Below are positions 22,337-39,263 of a stretch of DNA of 41,602 bases, in pieces. Origin of the DNA: Halobacteriales archaeon QS_8_69_73 (GTDB lineage Archaea; Halobacteriota; Halobacteria; Halobacteriales; Haloarculaceae); assembly GCA_003022945.1 (NCBI GenBank), contig PXRZ01000071.1:1-41602 (forward strand), in the 5' to 3' direction. Both the position numbers and the translations under genes were made by a program. The notes under the pieces are model-generated. The model was not told where the DNA came from, did not search any database, and saw only the letters and a list, made by a program, of their open reading frames with translations. How positions within the stretch are numbered: the first letter of the stretch is position 1; every line of letters begins with the position of its first letter.

Positions 22337-22497
22337 GGGGCGTTCGAAGAACGCCCCTGAGGCGGTTCCCGGCGACGAGGCCGGAGGCCGAGTCGCCGTA
22401 GCGCGCGCGGACTGGAGTGGCGCCGAAGGCGCCATGGGAGGAGCACGCGCGCATATTTTCCCCACGTTTTTGCCAACCCTCTCGCGTCGCGAGAGGG
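22337..22497. repeat. cluster of three perfect triloop hairpins
   Basis: Three perfect inverted repeats with exactly three loop bases: GGGGCGTTC around GAA (22337-22357), TGGCGCC around GAA (22418-22434) and CCCTCTCGC around GTC (22477-22497). The last lies 19 nt past the tfs stop codon and could serve as its terminator; T-rich DNA stands next to it. No gene is seen in this interval. Confidence 0.7.
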
Positions 22498-22515
22498 TCG
22501 TGTAAAAAGTGGGTG

Positions 22516-22839
22516 TTAGTGATCGTCCTCGCGCCACTTGTGCTCGCACTCGGTGCAGGTGAAAAAGCGGGTCTCGGACTCGTCGGCCGCCCGGATCTGC
22601 TTCATCTCGTAGCGGGCCCGGTCGTTGCCGCACTCCGGACAGCGGACCTCCGTCGTCGGGCCGATGGCCTCGTCGTCGACCTCGGACATGTCGACCGGGC
22701 CGCTGTCGGTGTCCTGCCCCTCCGTCGTCGTCATCGCCTCGGCGCCGCCGTCGCGAGCCGTCTCGAAGCCGCAGGAGCGACAGACCCACCCGTCGTCCTC
22801 GCCGTGCATCATCGAGCCGCACTCGTCGCAGAATTCCAT
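22516..22839 (-). CDS. tfs: transcription factor S (TFS/TFIIS-like)
   Basis: Transcript-cleavage factor of the archaeal RNA polymerase, 107 residues. The N-terminal zinc ribbon shows CDECGSMM and CRSCGFET; an acidic linker follows; the C-terminal ribbon has CPECGNDRARY and CTECEHKWRED. The catalytic acidic pair is replaced by or shifted within SETRFFTC: the classic RSADEP-type loop reads RAADESETRFF, which keeps D-E. The length is standard. It is complete, monocistronic by position, and probably ends at the hairpin just downstream. Confidence 0.93.
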   Translation of the reverse strand: MEFCDECGSMMHGEDDGWVCRSCGFETARDGGAEAMTTTEGQDTDSGPVDMSEVDDEAIGPTTEVRCPECGNDRARYEMKQIRAADESETRFFTCTECEHKWREDDH

Positions 22840-26657: not shown

Positions 26658-27165
26658 GTCGACGATGTTCTAGTTATGAGGGGTAGCGTGCCTCGGCTGT
26701 GATGACGACGTGTCCGAACGTCCCCTTTTTCGCCTCCCGCTCGTGAAGCGAGTCAACACACGCACACAGGCCGCATGTAGCGAGGCCGAGCGAGCGCAGC
26801 GAGAGCGGTCTCGTAAAGCAGCGAGCGGGAGAAGCGACGGGGGAGCGACGACACGCCGTGGTTCGAACGACGGCTCCGCGAGCCATCGTTCGTCATCTCG
26901 ACCGTCGCTGATTGCCGGAGACAGCAAGACGCAGCCCGCGAGCGGTCGACTTCGTTCGAGCTCCCGGCCGATCGGCCGGCTCTCATTACCTAAGCGCATC
27001 CTCCGTGGCCATAAGATTCTTTCCATGCCACAACATATCACGGTATATCGGAGGTGGTGACCGACGGCACCGAGCACCCAAGCGGCCGAGTCGTATCGTC
27101 AGTCACTGTAGCACCCCATCCCCTGCGTCACGTGCCGACCCGCTGCCCCCGGGTCGGCTCCGCTT
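26658..27165. other. gene-free interval with a large triloop hairpin
   Basis: About 500 nt without a convincing gene. It holds a 13-bp hairpin with one mismatch and a three-base loop (CGAACGACGGCTC around CGC, 26864-26892), the 16-nt palindrome CCGGCCGATCGGCCGG near 26964, and GAGCGAAGCGAG-type repeats at 26740-26830. A short AT-rich spot (about 27000-27050) follows. It resembles the other repeat clusters of the window. Confidence 0.55.
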
Positions 27166-30312: not shown

Positions 30313-31910
30313 ATGTTCGACCCCGACGACCTCGAGGCGATCCGCGAGGGGCGCGAGCGGTGGGAGGCGGAGACGTACGGCCCCACCCTCGACCGCTTCG
30401 GGGAGCGCGAGGAGCGGTTCACCACGGACACCGGCGGACAGGCGGTCGACCAACTGTACACGCCGGAAGACGTCGCCGACCTCGACCACGACGGGGACCT
30501 CGGCTACCCGGGCGAGCCACCGTACACCCGCGGCGTCTACTCGACGATGTACCGCGGCCGGCTGTGGACGATGCGGCAGTACGCCGGGATGGGTTCCGCC
30601 GCCGAGACGAACGAGCGGTACCACTACCTGATGGACGAGGGCCAGACCGGGCTGTCGATGGCGTTCGACCTGCCGACACAGATGGGATACGACTCCGACT
30701 CGGCGATGGCCGAAGGCGAGGTCGGCAAGGCCGGCGTCGCCATCGACTCCCTGCGGGACATGGAGACGGTCTTCGACGGCATCCCGCTGGACGAGGTGTC
30801 GACATCGATGACCATCAACGCGCCCGCTTCGGTACTGCTCGCGATGTACGTCGCCGTCGGCGACCGCCAGGGCGTCGACCGCGAACGGTTGCGCGGCACC
30901 ATCCAAAACGACATCCTCAAGGAGTACATCGCGCGCAACACGTTCATCTACCCGCCGGCGCCGTCGATGCGGATCATCACGGACATCTTCGAGTTCTGCG
31001 CCGAGGAGGTGCCGAGCTTCAACACTATCTCCATCTCCGGCTACCACATCCGCGAGGCCGGCGCCACCGCCGCCCAGGAGGTCGCCTTCACGCTCGGCAA
31101 CGGCATCGAGTACGTCGAGGCCGCCCTTGAGGCCGGGCTCGACGTCGACGACTTCGCGCCGCAGCTGTCTTTTTTCTTCGCCTCCCACAACAACATCCTC
31201 GAGGAGGTCGCGAAGTTCCGGGCGGCCCGCCGGCTGTGGTACCGCATCATGGACGAGCGGTTCGACGCCGAGGACGCCGGCTCCAAGCAGCTGAAGTTCC
31301 ACACCCAGACTGCCGGGTCGACGCTGACCGCCCAGCAGGTCGAGAACAACGTCGTCCGGGTGGCCTACCAGGCGCTGGCGGCGGTGCTGGGCGGCACGCA
31401 GTCGCTGCACACCAACGGCAAGGACGAGGCGCTGAGCCTCCCGACCGAGCAGTCGGTCCGGACCGCGCTGCGGACCCAGCAGATTCTCGCCGAGGAGTCC
31501 GGCGCCGCCGACACCATCGACCCGCTGGCGGGGTCGTACTACGTCGAGTCGCTGACCGACGATCTCGAGAGCGAGGCGTTCGACATCATCGAGGAGGTCG
31601 ACGACCGCAGCGGGATGCGGCGGGCCGTCGAGAGCGGCTGGGTCCAAGACCAGATCCAGAACGTCGCCTTCGAGCGCCAGCGGGAGATCGAGACCGGCGA
31701 GCGGGTCATCGTCGGCGTCAACGAGTACACCGTCGACGAGGACCCCGAAGAGGACATCGAGGAGGTCTCGGAGGCGGAGCAGCGACAGCAGCGCGAGCGC
31801 GTCCCAACCTCATGCCATACATCGTCGACGCCGTGAAGGCCTACGCGACCACCGGCGAGATCTGCGACGCCATGCGAGACGTTTTCGGCGAGTACCACGC
31901 CGGAGTGTGA
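30313..31910 (+). pseudogene. mcmA: methylmalonyl-CoA mutase large subunit, frameshifted near the C-terminus
   Basis: Catalytic (substrate-binding) subunit of B12-dependent methylmalonyl-CoA mutase, which converts methylmalonyl-CoA to succinyl-CoA. The TIM-barrel part is complete: [76 protein letters not shown] and [17 protein letters not shown]. The B12 domain is on a separate subunit in archaea and is not seen here. The frame runs to [11 protein letters not shown] and then ends in a shifted tail at 31836. The genuine C-terminus ([19 protein letters not shown] to a stop at 31910) is in another frame. About 25-30 residues seem missing at 31800-31806. mce follows downstream and fits the same pathway. 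Confidence 0.88.
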
Positions 31911-32045: not shown

Positions 32046-32528
32046 ACACCTCGAAAGCCCTCGCGGCGGTCGACCCTCCGGGACTCGCTGTCGTTCGAGA
32101 GAGCTCCGCTCTCTCGTGATGTTGCCAGAATCCGACGGATTCTGGCCGCTTGCCGGACGTCGTCCGGCACTGTCGTCAGAACGCGGAGCGTCCTGACTGC
32201 AAGCGGGAAATCTCCGATTTCCCGCAATGACGAAAGACGCGTCGCGTCTCGTCTTTCGAACCATGCTCCTCACTTCGTTGCGGTGCTTGCGTCGTCTGGG
32301 AGGGGTCGACCGCCCCTCGCCCTTTCGCCCACCAGGGACAGCCCGTTGGAAAGCCGATCTCCTGGTGGACTGAAAGGGCGAGGCCGGCTTCCGGGAACCT
32401 GGACGTTCGCGGCGCCATGCGCCGCGAGCTCGGGAGAGCTCTGCTCTCCCGGTGACGCAAGCACGCGAGCGAAGCGAGCGCGCGCAGCGAGTCCCGGGAC
32501 CGAAGCCGGCCGAGGGCTTTCGAGGTGT
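32046..32528. mobile_element. MITE-like unit with inverted ends filled by triloop hairpins
   Basis: The ends are perfect 18-nt inverted repeats: ACACCTCGAAAGCCCTCG at 32046-32063 and its complement at 32511-32528. Similarity continues inward to about 45 nt, where CGGGACTCGCTG stands at nearly the same distance from both ends. Inside are eight hairpins with three-base loops: CGAGAGAGC/TCC (32096), GCCAGAATCC/GAC (32124), TGCCGGAC/GTC (32151), GTCAGAACGC/GGA with one mismatch (32175), GCGGGAAATC/TCC (32203), AGACGC/GTC (32235), CGCGGCGC/CAT (32408) and CGGGAGAGC/TCT (32431). A larger inverted repeat lies at 32316-32336 and 32361-32382. No transposase and no target duplication were seen. Confidence 0.55.
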
Positions 32529-32663
32529 TGGAAGGTTCGTTCCACGAGAAAACAGGTAGACCACCCGCGTAACGAGCAGCCCCGTTCCAACGCTACAGGG
32601 AGTACAGTCCGAGGAAGCGAGCCCTTCCCGCGCGTTTTAGTTCGTCCATGTCGACGGCCAGAC

Positions 32664-33047
32664 ATGCGCTTCGACCACGCCGGCGTCGCAACCAAGAACG
32701 CTGAAAGCCTCGCTTTCCGCTACGAGGACATCTTCGGCTGCGAGATCGCCCACGAGGAGCGATTTGGCGACCTGAAGGTCATCTTCCTCGGGCTGGAGAA
32801 CGGCTATTTCGAGTTGCTGGAGCCCCGCGAGGAGGGGACCGTCGCCGAATACCTCGAGAACCACGGCCCCGGTCTCCACCACGTCGCGCTGGCGACCGAC
32901 GACATCGAGGCCGCACTCGACGACGCCGTCGACGCCGGCGCCGATCTGGTGGACGAAGAGCCCCGGCCGGGCGCCTGGGGCCACGAGGTCGCCTTCCTCC
33001 ACCCGGAATCGACAGGCGGCGTCCTCGTGGAGTTCGTCGAGCACTGA
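32664..33047 (+). CDS. mce: methylmalonyl-CoA epimerase
   Basis: Vicinal-oxygen-chelate enzyme of 127 residues that interconverts the two methylmalonyl-CoA epimers before the mutase. Seen: the N-terminal metal-ligand histidine in MRFDHAGVAT, the motif GNGYFELLEP-like ENGYFELLEP, the second histidine in GPGLHHVALATDDI and the terminal motif GGVLVEFVEH with the last glutamate ligand. The length is typical and nothing is missing. It lies 750 nt downstream of mcmA, separated by the repeat unit, where the two would normally be close neighbours. Confidence 0.94.
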   Translation: MRFDHAGVATKNAESLAFRYEDIFGCEIAHEERFGDLKVIFLGLENGYFELLEPREEGTVAEYLENHGPGLHHVALATDDIEAALDDAVDAGADLVDEEPRPGAWGHEVAFLHPESTGGVLVEFVEH

Positions 33048-33110
33048 CGGCAACGCGGCCGGCGCGGGTCACCGGGCGTCAGCCCGCGGGGGACACCCGG
33101 AAGCCGTCCG

Positions 33111-35687: not shown

Positions 35688-36553
35688 GCTCCGACATCAG
35701 ATTCACCGACTTCAAATCAGACGAACAGCCCACCTGGTGTCCCGGGTGCGGCGACTTCGGCACGATGAACGGCATGATGAAGGCGCTGGCCCAGACGGGC
35801 AACGATCCCGACAACACGTTCGTGGTCGCCGGCATCGGCTGTTCCGGCAAGATCGGGACCTATATGCACAGCTACGCGCTGCACGGCGTCCACGGCCGGG
35901 CGCTGCCGGTCGGCACCGGCGTCAAGATCGCCAACCCCGAACTCGAGGTGATGGTCGCCGGCGGCGACGGCGACGGCTACTCCATCGGAGCCGGCCACTT
36001 CGTCCACGCCGTCCGCCGGAACGTCGACATGACGTACGTCGTCATGGACAACCGCATCTACGGGCTGACGAAGGGCCAGTTCTCTCCCACCTCGCGCGAG
36101 GACTTCGAGACCTCCACGAGCCCGGACGGCACCAACCAGCAACCGGTCAACCCACTGGCGCTGGCGCTCGCCGCCGGCGGCACCTTCATCGCTCAGTCCT
36201 TTTCCTCGGACTCCCAGCGCCACACAGAGATCGTCCAAGAAGCGATCGAACACGACGGCTTCGGCTTCGTCAACGTATATTCGCCCTGCGTGACGTTCAA
36301 CGACGTCGACACCTACGACTACTTCCGGGACGCCATCGTCGACGTCGCCGACGAGGAGTTCGATCACGACCGCACGGACTACGACGCCGCAAAGGATCTC
36401 ATCATGGACCGCGACAAGGAGTACCAGGGCGTCATCTACCAGAACGAGAGCTCGGTCGGCTTCGAGACCCGCGAGGGCGTCACCGAGCCGATGACCGACA
36501 TCCCCGACGGCGCCCCCGACGACGCGATGGACCTGGTTCGAGAGTTCTACTGA
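35684..36553 (+). CDS. korB: 2-oxoacid:ferredoxin oxidoreductase, beta subunit (KorB-like)
   Basis: Thiamine-diphosphate and [4Fe-4S]-binding beta subunit of 289 residues. Seen: the cluster/active-site motif TWCPGCGDFGTMNGMM, GIGCSGKIGTYMHSY, the ThDP-magnesium motif GDGDGYSIGAGHF followed by the asparagine region VVMDNRIYGLTKGQ, and the third conserved cysteine in NVYSPCVTFND. It is complete and ends in DLVREFY as its relatives do. It starts inside the last codons of korA and forms one operon with it. A triloop-hairpin array begins 16 nt after its stop codon and may contribute to termination. Confidence 0.93.
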   Translation: MSSDIRFTDFKSDEQPTWCPGCGDFGTMNGMMKALAQTGNDPDNTFVVAGIGCSGKIGTYMHSYALHGVHGRALPVGTGVKIANPELEVMVAGGDGDGYSIGAGHFVHAVRRNVDMTYVVMDNRIYGLTKGQFSPTSREDFETSTSPDGTNQQPVNPLALALAAGGTFIAQSFSSDSQRHTEIVQEAIEHDGFGFVNVYSPCVTFNDVDTYDYFRDAIVDVADEEFDHDRTDYDAAKDLIMDRDKEYQGVIYQNESSVGFETREGVTEPMTDIPDGAPDDAMDLVREFY

Positions 36554-36568
36554 ACCTTTTGCACGTTC

Positions 36569-36875
36569 GGCGCGCCTGCGGCGCGCCTCACGGTCATCAG
36601 ATTCCGTTGGAATCTGATGGGCAATCAGACCGCGGAGCGGTCTGATGACGGCAAAAACGTCCTCAGAAGCGCGAAGCGCTTCTGATGGGCTGCGAAAGAC
36701 GCCACAGGCGTCTTTCGAACGTTCATGAAAAAGACACTGCGGGCCTCCAGCCGTGGTTCGAGAGAGCGAAGCTCTCTCGTCATCTGCTCACGGGCGGCGG
36801 AGCCGCCCGTTCGCATGGTCCGCGGGACTCGACGAGTCCCGCGTATATCCCGAAAGGCTCTCGCTGCCTTTCGGG
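36569..36875. repeat. array of hairpins with three-base loops behind korB
   Basis: Nine perfect or near-perfect hairpins in about 300 nt, with no gene. Arm/loop: GGCGCGCC/TGC (36569), ATCAGATTCC/GTT (36596), ATCAGACCGC/GGA (36624), TCAGAAGCGC/GAA (36663), CGAAAGACGCC/ACA (36693), CGAGAGAGC/GAA (36759), ACGGGCGGC/GGA (36790), CGCGGGACTC/GAC (36821) and CCGAAAGGC with a seven-base loop (36850). Arms are 8-11 bp and unrelated in sequence to each other, while the loop length is constant. Further short palindromes continue to about 36950. The arm CGAGAGAGC also occurs at 32096 with a different loop. Confidence 0.8.
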
Positions 36876-37001
36876 CGACGGCGCTGCGCGCCGCGTTAGT
36901 CGGCCCTTGGTCCGGCGACTCGACGGCTCCGCCGTTTCGTCGCCGTGAACCGCTCGCTCACTCGTTCGCTCGCGGATGCCTGTGGCCCCCTTCTCGACTC
37001 G

Positions 37002-37139
37002 CTATTTTGTACGTCCGGAGAGGTGGTCGATCCGTGCTTCGGTCTCCGCGACCAGTTCTTCGAGCACCGCGGCGGCCGGCCACACCTCCTCGGTGAGGCC
37101 GCTACTCTGGCCGGCGTACAGCGCGAGCGCCTCGGGCCG
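37002..37139 (-). pseudogene. C-terminal remnant of a nitronate monooxygenase-like flavoprotein
   Basis: About 45 codons resembling the C-terminus of the 2-nitropropane dioxygenase/FabK-like flavin-dependent family: ALALYAGQSSGLTEEVWPA followed by a terminal helix (AVLEELVAETEARID). The tens of kilodaltons that should precede it, with the FMN-binding barrel, are absent. Upstream on the minus strand the frame runs at once into hairpin DNA (37153-37196) translating as arginine/proline-rich nonsense. It is a tail without a gene, left by a large deletion or by replacement with repeat DNA. The family call rests on a short stretch and is moderately sure. Confidence 0.6.
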
Positions 37140-37152
37140 TGCGAGCGGGCGG

Positions 37153-37270
37153 CGAGGCGGCGAAACCGCCTCGAATTCGCGGCGCGGAGCGCCGCGCATG
37201 GCCCGCGAGCAAAAGTCGAGAGCGCCGAGGGCTTTCTCCCGCGTTCTGTTCTCTCGGTCTCTTACATGAC
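37153..37270. repeat. hairpin DNA abutting the oxygenase remnant
   Basis: CGAGGCGG around CGAAA (37153-37173) and CGCGGCGC around the triloop GGA (37178-37196), the same arm as the hairpin at 32408 but with another loop. Further along, GCCGAGGGCTTTC (about 37225-37237) matches the inner part of the inverted end of the unit at 32511. So this looks like part of a second, degraded copy of that unit. Confidence 0.55.
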
Positions 37271-38522: not shown

Positions 38523-39263
38523 TCAGTAGCAGCGCTCCTCGACGCGCTCGTCGTAGAGCCGACGGAGCAGCGATGTCATCGGGCCGTCGCCGACAGCGAT
38601 GCCGTCGACCCGCTCGACGGGCCGGAGTTCCCACGTCGAGTTCGTCAGGAACGCCTCGTCTGCCTCCCGAACGTCGTCGAGTGAGTACCGGCCGGTCTCG
38701 ACGGGGAACCCCTCGGCCTCCGCGAACTCGACGACCAGCTCTCGGGTGATGCCCGGTAGGAGCGACCCCGCAGCCGGCGTCTTCAACACGCCGTCGTCGA
38801 CGAAGAAGAGGTTGCTCGTGGCGCCCTCGGCGACGTTGCCGTCGACGTCCCGCATCAGGGCCTCGTCCGGCCGGTAGGAGTCGGTAACGGGCTCGCCGTC
38901 GACGCCGCCCCGCGGTAGCGGCTTGACGTAGACGACGACCGTCGGATCGACGTCCGGCTGTGGCGTCAGCTTGCCCGGCTGAACGCCGCGGCTGACCGAG
39001 ATCCGGACGTAGGCGTCCGCGAGGTCGTTGGCGTCGAGTGTCTCGGCGACCCGGACGGCGATGTCGTCAGGGGCCGCCTCGGCCATGCCGAGCGTCTCGC
39101 AGCCCTCCCGGAGCCGGTCGACGTGGCGGTCCCAGGCGTACACCTCGCCGCCGTAGGCCCGACACGTCTCGAAGACCGCGTCGCCGTAGCGGAACCCCCG
39201 GTCGTCGACGCTGACGGTCGCCTCCTCGCGGGGCACCAGCTCGCCGTTCAGGTGGTACTGCAT
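38523..39263 (-). CDS. pabC: 4-amino-4-deoxychorismate lyase-like aminotransferase class IV, lacking the lysine segment
   Basis: PLP fold-type IV enzyme of 246 residues that would release p-aminobenzoate in folate/pterin synthesis. Seen: MQYHLNGELVPREEATVSVD and RGFRYGDAVFETCRAYGG at the start, AYVRISVSRGVQPGKLTP, and the C-terminal VAEGATSNLFFVDDGVL, LPGITRELVVEF and EAFLTNSTWELRPV. Odd: after GGVDGEPVTDS (residue about 128) the chain joins YRPDEALMRDVDG directly. About 45 residues are missing there, in frame, including the AKTHNYL-type segment that carries the PLP-binding lysine. The enzyme should be inactive as given. It follows the broken pabB/pabA fusion on the same strand. Confidence 0.85.
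   Translation of the reverse strand: MQYHLNGELVPREEATVSVDDRGFRYGDAVFETCRAYGGEVYAWDRHVDRLREGCETLGMAEAAPDDIAVRVAETLDANDLADAYVRISVSRGVQPGKLTPQPDVDPTVVVYVKPLPRGGVDGEPVTDSYRPDEALMRDVDGNVAEGATSNLFFVDDGVLKTPAAGSLLPGITRELVVEFAEAEGFPVETGRYSLDDVREADEAFLTNSTWELRPVERVDGIAVGDGPMTSLLRRLYDERVEERCY

Follow-up and report, generated by a model that had tools for sequence, protein, structure and literature searches.

The hairpin arrays analysed here probably represent clustered copies of a haloarchaeal mobile DNA element that is very small and non-autonomous; its mobility is suggested by the comparison of copies. The element is a discrete unit with defined ends that is present or missing in the same context, lies mostly at a G^C junction with no duplication, and accommodates extra central hairpins. 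The DNA studied, referred to below as the window, is the whole of contig C71 (41,602 nucleotides) of a 2.63 Mb host genome, which comprises 79 contigs and is 76% complete. The korB-like protein encoded in the window had its best named matches in Haloarculaceae/Halobacteriales and Natronomonas records. A second genome was fetched in stretches; counting blocks no shorter than 300 bp with an identity higher than 85%, the shared sequence totalled 77 kb.

Hairpin Arrays of the Window

The following features were distinguished in the window (HP, hairpin):

22337..22498, no strand assigned: triloop hairpins GGGGCGTTC with loop GAA, TGGCGCC with loop GAA and ACCCTCTCGC with loop GTC; similar modules occur elsewhere
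26858..26897, plus strand: decayed half-element, with element flanks GTGGTTCG..CGTCATC around an imperfect stem
32046..32528, no strand assigned: foldback host repeat bearing hairpin insertions, with terminal inverted repeats ACACCTCGAAAGCCCTCG / CGAGGGCTTTCGAGGTGT; the related locus L014 has a shorter version without the insertions
32091..32263, plus strand: six-hairpin nested element, TCGTT-HP-TGATGTT-HP-CGC-HP-..-HP-TGCAA-HP-AATGA-HP-AACCA
32406..32454, plus strand: 49-bp two-hairpin insertion, not of the TCGTY type, with TCGCGGCGC and CGGGAGAGC hairpins; absent at the orthologous site of L014, the flanks being otherwise collinear
36557..36652, no strand assigned: module A, a TTTTGC..GCAAAA stem around hairpins 36569-36587, 36595-36619 and 36624-36646, as seen in a DNA fold
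36656..36723, plus strand: doublet module B, AACGTCC-HP(36663-36685)-TGGGCTG-HP(36693-36717)-AACGTT, with inverted ends AACGT/ACGTT
36754..36879, minus strand: putative four-hairpin element with the inner hairpins at the doublet centre; on the reverse strand it reads GTCG-HP(36849-36875)-..-HP(36821-36843)-GACCATGCGA-HP(36790-36810)-GAGCAGATGA-HP(36759-36779)-AACCA
36879..36983, no strand assigned: module D, a dispersed repeat but not a triloop doublet, with motif GAACCGCTCGC..GCTCGCGGATGC and matches of 75-97% in related genomes
37153..37196, no strand assigned: hairpin pair CGAGGCGG with loop CGAAA and CGCGGCGC with loop GGA, which recurs in the own genome with other loops

The assignment of 36754-36879 to a minus-strand four-hairpin form follows from its linkers, which by reading are those of the four-hairpin copies L089 and L229-L234; the parse that listed hairpin numbers between common ends did not itself detect this copy. 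Parts of it matched the own genome and relatives at 73-98% identity, and its boundary near 36879 is approximate because the end there is degenerate. Whole-module copies of module B were found elsewhere, as were partial copies of module A in other genomes. The hairpins at 22337..22498 adjoin a putative TFS-like gene (22516-22839, minus strand, named by reading).

A number of other observations were made in the window. The 18-bp terminal inverted repeats of the 32046-32528 foldback flank the 32 kb array, and pieces of this region gave 122 matches in the relative G146. A second hairpin family, TTTTTGC-hairpin-TGCAAAAA or similar, with GCA, GGA, GAA or GAC loops between T and A tracts, was noted at L097 (8781 and 9893), L093 (7313), L094 (16499) and window position 22476. 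A remnant at 36995-37150 is similar to the 3' terminus of the gene that faces korB convergently in Natronomonas gomsonensis (L018); this gene, by reading a putative nitronate monooxygenase, seems to have been lost in the window. At 31805 the window is without 79 bp that L014 has near the end of a conserved gene, perhaps owing to an assembly gap or a real deletion. Other differences from L014 in coding regions lie at 36286 (57 bp extra in the window) and at 38884 and 40832 (missing in the window).

Hairpin Excess and Loop Length

The hairpin arrays are real. Within 1,082 bp of array DNA, 16 hairpins with arms of at least 8 bp and loops of 1 or 3 nt were counted. When this DNA was dinucleotide-shuffled 200 times, the mean count was 0.12 and the highest 2. 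The excess was also seen for three-base loops with arms of at least 9 bp, for which five shuffles were made per set: 12 vs. 0.6 in the window, 73 vs. 1.6 in stretches of the own genome picked by array hits, and 19 vs. 1.2 in own stretches picked blind to hits.

The sequence-only reading had described loops of nearly always three bases. Three was the loop length with the greatest over-representation against shuffles; in absolute numbers, however, the window contained more one-base than three-base loops when arms down to 7 bp were counted (21 vs. 19). In the unselected own stretches the peak at three was slight at arms of at least 9 bp (19 hairpins with loop 3, 17 with loop 1, 14 with loop 0), and at arms of at least 8 bp loop 1 (60) exceeded loop 3 (55), although the excess of loop 1 over shuffles was smaller than that of loop 3, and likewise for loop 0. 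Just over half of the 1-nt loops (26 of 51) are C(GAC)G or C(GTC)G, for which a triloop reading is also possible. Across 80 loci (1.54 Mb) of related haloarchaea, loop 3 was represented by 54 hairpins, compared with 12-39 at each other length from 0 to 12.

The remaining descriptive claims of that reading held to a varying extent. Perfect hairpins occur at most of the places it named; however, 26864-26892 is without any perfect hairpin of at least 7 bp, and in the range 36569-36875 the hairpin at 36849-36875 has a loop of 7 nt, not three. The recurrence of two arms with different loops was confirmed in the window for both arms. The arms of neighbouring hairpins are not all unrelated, as had been proposed, since three hairpins at 36595-36685 share the ends ATCAGA/TCTGAT or TCAGA/TCTGA.

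Unit and Distribution of the Element

When the fetched copies were read together, the basic unit emerged as a doublet of two hairpins, TCGTY-HPa-TGATSA-HPb-RACSA, with a length of 52-68 bp. Copies of the array modules differ in arms and loops but not in linkers. Throughout the order, the linker and end sequences (TCGTY, TGATSA, RACSA) are conserved, and the arrays are therefore dispersed repeats with a recognisable sequence. Thus, the proposal that the architecture and not the sequence is conserved is appropriate for arms and loops but not for these short segments.

The doublet signature was detected in 266 of the 392 genomes of the host order (own genome included), representing 75 of 95 genera, with no match to a reversed-pattern control in any of the 392. 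In a sample drawn from the phylum, 29 of the 33 members of the order had it, compared with none of the 163 genomes from outside. With an E limit of 10, pieces of the 36.5 kb array matched the own genome 69 times, a count that contains the array itself and its palindromic self-matches; with a limit of 0.001, they matched 117 of 146 genomes, the own one among them. The doublet query matched 26 plasmid records, all 20 among the matches listed being haloarchaeal, and no phage record. The comparison with other haloarchaea, which had been suggested as a check, assigned the array hairpins to a dispersed element.

Spread of this kind bears on the view that the palindromes arise in place by template switching, as a result of local mutation and with no mobile unit. 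Perfect arms and loops in either orientation are the marks of template switching described in two reports (PMC8604942; PMC8794818), but the same ends, centres and arms recur across the 75 genera and on plasmids, and the segments that are present or absent between copies have defined ends. Local mutation as the only process is therefore highly improbable.

Internal Rules of the Doublet

The internal rules were derived from 121 places among the matches listed, the reverse readings of symmetric elements having been dropped. After removal of six within-genome repeats of an identical element, 115 distinct elements with 230 hairpins from 47 genomes were retained; a match in G182 with 7 mismatches in each stem, evidently due to chance, was kept among them. 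The stems were perfect in 198 of the 230 hairpins, and a control in which arms of different hairpins of equal length were paired gave 0.279; in each, both outer pairs were fixed by the search pattern. Three-base loops were present in 204 hairpins. The loops were balanced in orientation, with GAA and TTC at 37:37 and GGA and TCC at 21:21. Among directional units only (TGATCA units are directionless and were read on one strand only), 38 GNA and 44 TNC loops were counted.

The same arm never occurred twice in one doublet (0 of 115, vs. 9.9 expected), and none of 10,000 shuffles reached 0, within-genome copies not being independent in this statistic. The smaller set of fetched loci agreed, with 0 of 27 against 1.6 expected, but was not significant alone (P 0.20).

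The preference for particular loops was assessed in the own genome (the window and 40 stretches) on 118 distinct arm-plus-loop combinations. GGA/TCC accounted for 23 and GAA/TTC for 22 of them, compared with 3.9% and 3.2% in the CNNNG-context background, which corresponds to an about five- to six-fold enrichment of GAA and GGA. The AAA loop also stood out (6 of 118 vs. a background of 0.3%). GAC/GTC loops were considered as preferred and rejected, since their 15 of 118 (12.7%) were not above the background of 17.1%.

Stem Covariation and Loop Orientation

Stems were also examined in hairpins chosen by their flanks. The second hairpin of module B was found in 18 places in 12 of the 392 genomes, with 9 different arms and all 18 stems perfect, two bases of one arm being fixed by the flank pattern too; its loops were GNA in 4 and TNC in 11 cases, in what is a small sample. 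The first hairpin of module C was found in 36 places in 16 of the 392 genomes, with 14 different arms and 27 of 36 stems perfect; GNA and TNC loops were equally frequent (13 each), and the mismatches were G.T 5, A.C 5, C.T 2 and C.A 1. Mismatch counts were taken from such flank-chosen samples, an earlier mismatch test having been confounded by the stem ends. In the 230 hairpins of the doublets, 12 of the 49 internal mismatches were G.T or T.G, and 12 were A.C or C.A.

Covariation was calculated on the stem-9 strings of the module B and module C hairpins (16 and 8) with 500 shuffles and slid controls. The score was 0.411 in the first set (0.172 shuffled, slid at most 0.161) and 0.286 in the second (0.066 shuffled, slid at most 0.071). 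In both sets the score and the share of paired cells were above all 500 shuffles and all slid controls, although, as the tool warns, related sequences may inflate such scores. The pairs changed on both sides and the further pair types were not above shuffles (185 and 208 of 500 shuffles reached the first set, 236 and 77 of 500 the second).

Among 325 pairs of copies with the same flanks and the same arm, the loop was inverted in 34, the same in 84 and otherwise different in 207; these flips are differences between copies, not within a pedigree. Inverted loops are rarer than other loop changes, and ordinary loop mutation is therefore common too.

These data weigh on the idea that the hairpins belong to structured RNA, such as terminators, 3' UTR elements or non-coding RNA. 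Some arrays do lie directly 3' of korB, after T-rich stretches, and stem covariation would be expected of an RNA. Nevertheless, GNA and TNC loops are equally frequent against fixed flanks apart from the small module B sample, there is no wobble excess, and in the gaps between tandem genes GNA loops on the coding strand numbered 20:14 and 11:12. An Rfam scan of the window at gathering scores gave no match. Given the symmetry of loop orientation and the lack of any G.T excess over A.C among the mismatches, structured RNA is unsupported and appears very unlikely; the same symmetries favour DNA over RNA. Of the earlier suggestion that selection or a copying mechanism acts on the folded form, the part on a folded-DNA process is supported by the covarying, mostly perfect stems and the either-way loops, whereas the part on structured RNA is not.

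Presence, Absence, and Placement of Copies

The closely related locus L014 aligned with the window in blocks of 92.6-96.8% identity, with one block at 84.4%. At the 32 kb locus the window contains a hairpin cluster and, separately, the 49-bp two-hairpin segment, neither of which is present in L014; the 49-bp difference is clean, whereas the alignment around the larger 32091..32263 cluster is not base-clean. The 36.5 kb array is also missing from L014. A precise 51-bp two-hairpin difference was found between L103 and L182, which are possibly paralogous. In L247 an IS200-type tnpA gene contains a 54-bp doublet, whereas L246, another copy of this IS in the same genome, has the gene without an interruption; doublets related to that of L247 are multicopy in several genomes of the group. 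These comparisons between filled and empty sites are unpolarised for gain vs. loss at every site.

The placement of hairpins relative to genes was determined with a simple, rough gene caller based on codon usage, which, by reading, misassigned the strand of at least one gene (32637-33053). With this caller, 74 of the 81 C(GNA)G/C(TNC)G hairpins in own stretches were intergenic, 5 genic and 2 at edges, and in the relative G146 44 of 61 were intergenic, 10 genic and 7 at edges.

Such a bias would suit host DNA structures kept by selection, e.g., sites for gyrase, a chromatin protein or a cruciform-binding protein, as would the strong upkeep of the structure and the free loop orientation that a cruciform would predict. 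This explanation is nonetheless unlikely: copy number is very uneven across the order, from 0 to 25 on one strand, one copy lies within the tnpA reading frame and others within other repeats, and the arrays are absent from the orthologous sites of L014.

Probable Insertion Sites and Nesting

The junction was G^C in 57 of 65 distinct contexts. No target duplication was found at the compared filled and empty sites, which were few and mostly paralogous copies. Inverted repeats of at least 7 bp flanked the junction in 15 of the 65 contexts, compared with 12 of 1,026 nearby control positions. Divided by genus, they were found in 12 of 20 contexts in the genus g4, from which many loci were fetched for this very element, and in 3 of 45 elsewhere (p 0.02). 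As 12 of the 15 palindrome-tip contexts come from g4, the tendency to lie at palindrome tips is strong there but weak elsewhere.

One such host site is provided by IS200/IS605-type elements and their solo derivatives, whose palindromic end reads CTACAGGCGGAGCAGGCCGAGTGCCTCGGGG-CTTGA-CCCCGAGG. Eighteen distinct copies of it were among those listed; five had bare loops (L040, L102, L138, L246, and L250), and in the other 13 the loop contained at least two hairpins, placed at about GGGG^CTTGA. Solo or IS-linked PATE-like palindrome ends in g4 genomes, with the CTACAGGCGGAGCAGG motif or close variants, contained two or more nested hairpins in L229, L230, L240, L263, L278, L280, L283, and L298. On contig C21 of the own genome (L095, 10172-10641), an apparently frameshifted IS200-type tnpA is immediately followed by a filled palindrome end with a hairpin module.

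Besides bare doublets, larger forms were present. The sequences with 2, 3, 4, 5, 6, and 8 hairpins between the common ends numbered 43, 4, 13, 2, 1, and 1, respectively; symmetric elements were counted in both readings, 26 of the 43 two-hairpin sequences were among those listed, and the single 8, L254 (5) and L022 (4) seem to be accidental spans. One of the two sequences with five hairpins is window 32091..32263, parsed so because two of its six stems are imperfect. The nested forms listed were 109-173 bp long. The outer pair TCGT-HP-TGA...TGA-HP-RACCA was kept in 11 of the 13 four-hairpin sequences, the exceptions being L022 and L106, and the extra hairpins are therefore located at the centre, TGA^TGA. 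Outer and inner hairpins are in common between L107, a bare doublet, the four-hairpin forms L103 and L108, and the six-hairpin forms L182 and window 32091..32263. The forms L103 and L108 could be deletions from the six-hairpin form or steps up to it.

Comparison With Known Repeats

In the open-licence literature searched, no account was found of how the hairpin pairs are built, of their nesting, of the symmetry of their loops or of their spread across the order. The closest description is that of the SMR-A repeats (HqIRS42/43/55) of Haloquadratum walsbyi (Dyall-Smith et al., 2011; PMC3119063). These were reported to be about 110 bp long with inverted ends, to produce no duplication of the target and to sit in near-terminal palindromes of PATEs and IS605 elements, and their mobilisation was termed enigmatic. 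The present element is likewise short, non-coding and dispersed, and shows no target duplication at the compared sites. Placement in palindromes was observed at 13 of the 18 listed IS/PATE-like ends and in 12 of 20 contexts of g4, but in only 3 of 45 elsewhere. The ends TCGTY and RACGA match for only 4-6 bp, and directional copies end in ACCA. Unlike SMR-A, the element is 52-68 bp long and built of unlike triloop hairpin pairs. By description, rather than by the sequence of HqIRS42/43/55, the element may work like SMR-A and is perhaps of that kind.

PATEs, described as palindrome-associated elements derived from IS605 (PMC3119063), share a neighbourhood with the doublets, which are hosted by the PATE-like or IS end given above; however, the doublets occupy the loop of that end and are not its terminal palindrome. 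The target duplication used as a criterion for MITEs was not seen at the compared sites.

REP/REPIN sequences of the GTAG and CGTC families were characterized as intergenic palindromes with short loops, complementary stem changes and dimers, with heterodimers outnumbering homodimers in most but not all families (PMC3733652). The element resembles them as a palindromic, intergenic repeat often found in inverted pairs. It differs in that the stem feet in the listed copies are TCGTY, TGATSA and RACSA with no GTAG or CGTC tag, 72 of 266 element-bearing genomes have no Y1 domain that could represent a linked RAYT (TnpA-REP) gene, it has extra central hairpins, and it was found in haloarchaea only.

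This resemblance raises the question of whether the repeats are of the REP/REPIN type, with an IS200-like Y1 transposase mobilising them in trans, the role proposed for RAYTs with regard to bacterial REPs. The largely intergenic hairpin pairs, located in and beside IS200-type tnpA without visible target duplication, are in accordance with such a mover. Y1 (IS200) domains were present in 260 of the 392 genomes, in 194 of the element-bearing genomes and not in 72, compared with 66 and 60 of the element-free ones; the odds ratio of the association was 2.4 (p 9e-5, phylogeny uncorrected). Y1 transposases and element copy number were weakly correlated (Spearman 0.25, uncorrected for phylogeny and genome quality). 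Against this explanation stand the missing stem-foot tag and the 72 bearers without a Y1 domain, among them G183, G127, and G090; G183 is 99% complete and has 11 copies on one strand. In addition, solely the IS200 subclass of Y1 proteins appears in the account of archaea given by a 2018 survey (PMC6006769). In the light of both points, the data allow for a RAYT-like mover but lend it no support, and we regard this explanation as rather unlikely. The Y1 transposase as the sole mover was rejected after a search of the own genome, relatives and the 392 genomes, in view of the weak association. CRISPR-, integron- and TnpB-guide-like readings suggested by motifs were dropped, as the arrays are mosaics of dispersed units.

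Proposed Mechanism and Implications

For the mobile element that we favour, movement would take place as folded single-stranded DNA. The folded element might be captured where other hairpins expose their loops, either through the action of an enzyme or in the course of replication. By switching template between the arms, the polymerase would copy one arm onto the other and might invert the 3-nt spacer. Homogenisation of arms with inversion of a 3-nt spacer (tcc/gga and ttc/gaa, arms of 10-11 bp) was reported for yeast (PMC8604942), and template switching was argued to create and maintain hairpins (PMC8794818). The perfect arms, the multi-base compensatory changes and the tcc/gga and ttc/gaa inversions are as here; those two reports, however, deal with yeast genes and RNA genes, whereas here the process would act on a dispersed repeat family. 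Since template switching would copy an arm and invert the spacer, both the perfect arms and the GNA or TNC loops would follow from it, and upkeep of the stems by this process is likely.

GNA triloops with a C-G closing pair form unusually stable DNA mini-hairpins. The prevalence of GAA and GGA loops with a C-G closing pair might be explained by this stability. The extraordinary stability of short DNA hairpins is noted in general terms in the literature (PMC10527192). The ViennaRNA DNA parameters assign one energy to every triloop and are thus unfit to test the GNA preference.

A more far-reaching and tentative proposal is that of an order-wide, RAYT-independent mobile system which would recognise and copy a folded pair of unlike hairpins and insert it in exposed loops, including that of its own centre, giving recursively nested arrays, with template switching keeping the fold and erasing the sequence. 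If this is true, the rule against identical arms marks a constraint that the two hairpins of a doublet must not pair with each other. With the present analysis, the unexplained small mobile repeats reported from one species in 2011 become what seems to be an order-wide element whose unit, junction and internal rules are defined, so that its mobilisation can be put to the test. Its numerous natural copies also allow arm homogenisation and loop inversion to be traced, with a bearing on the question of how genomes may keep perfect hairpins without selection on RNA.
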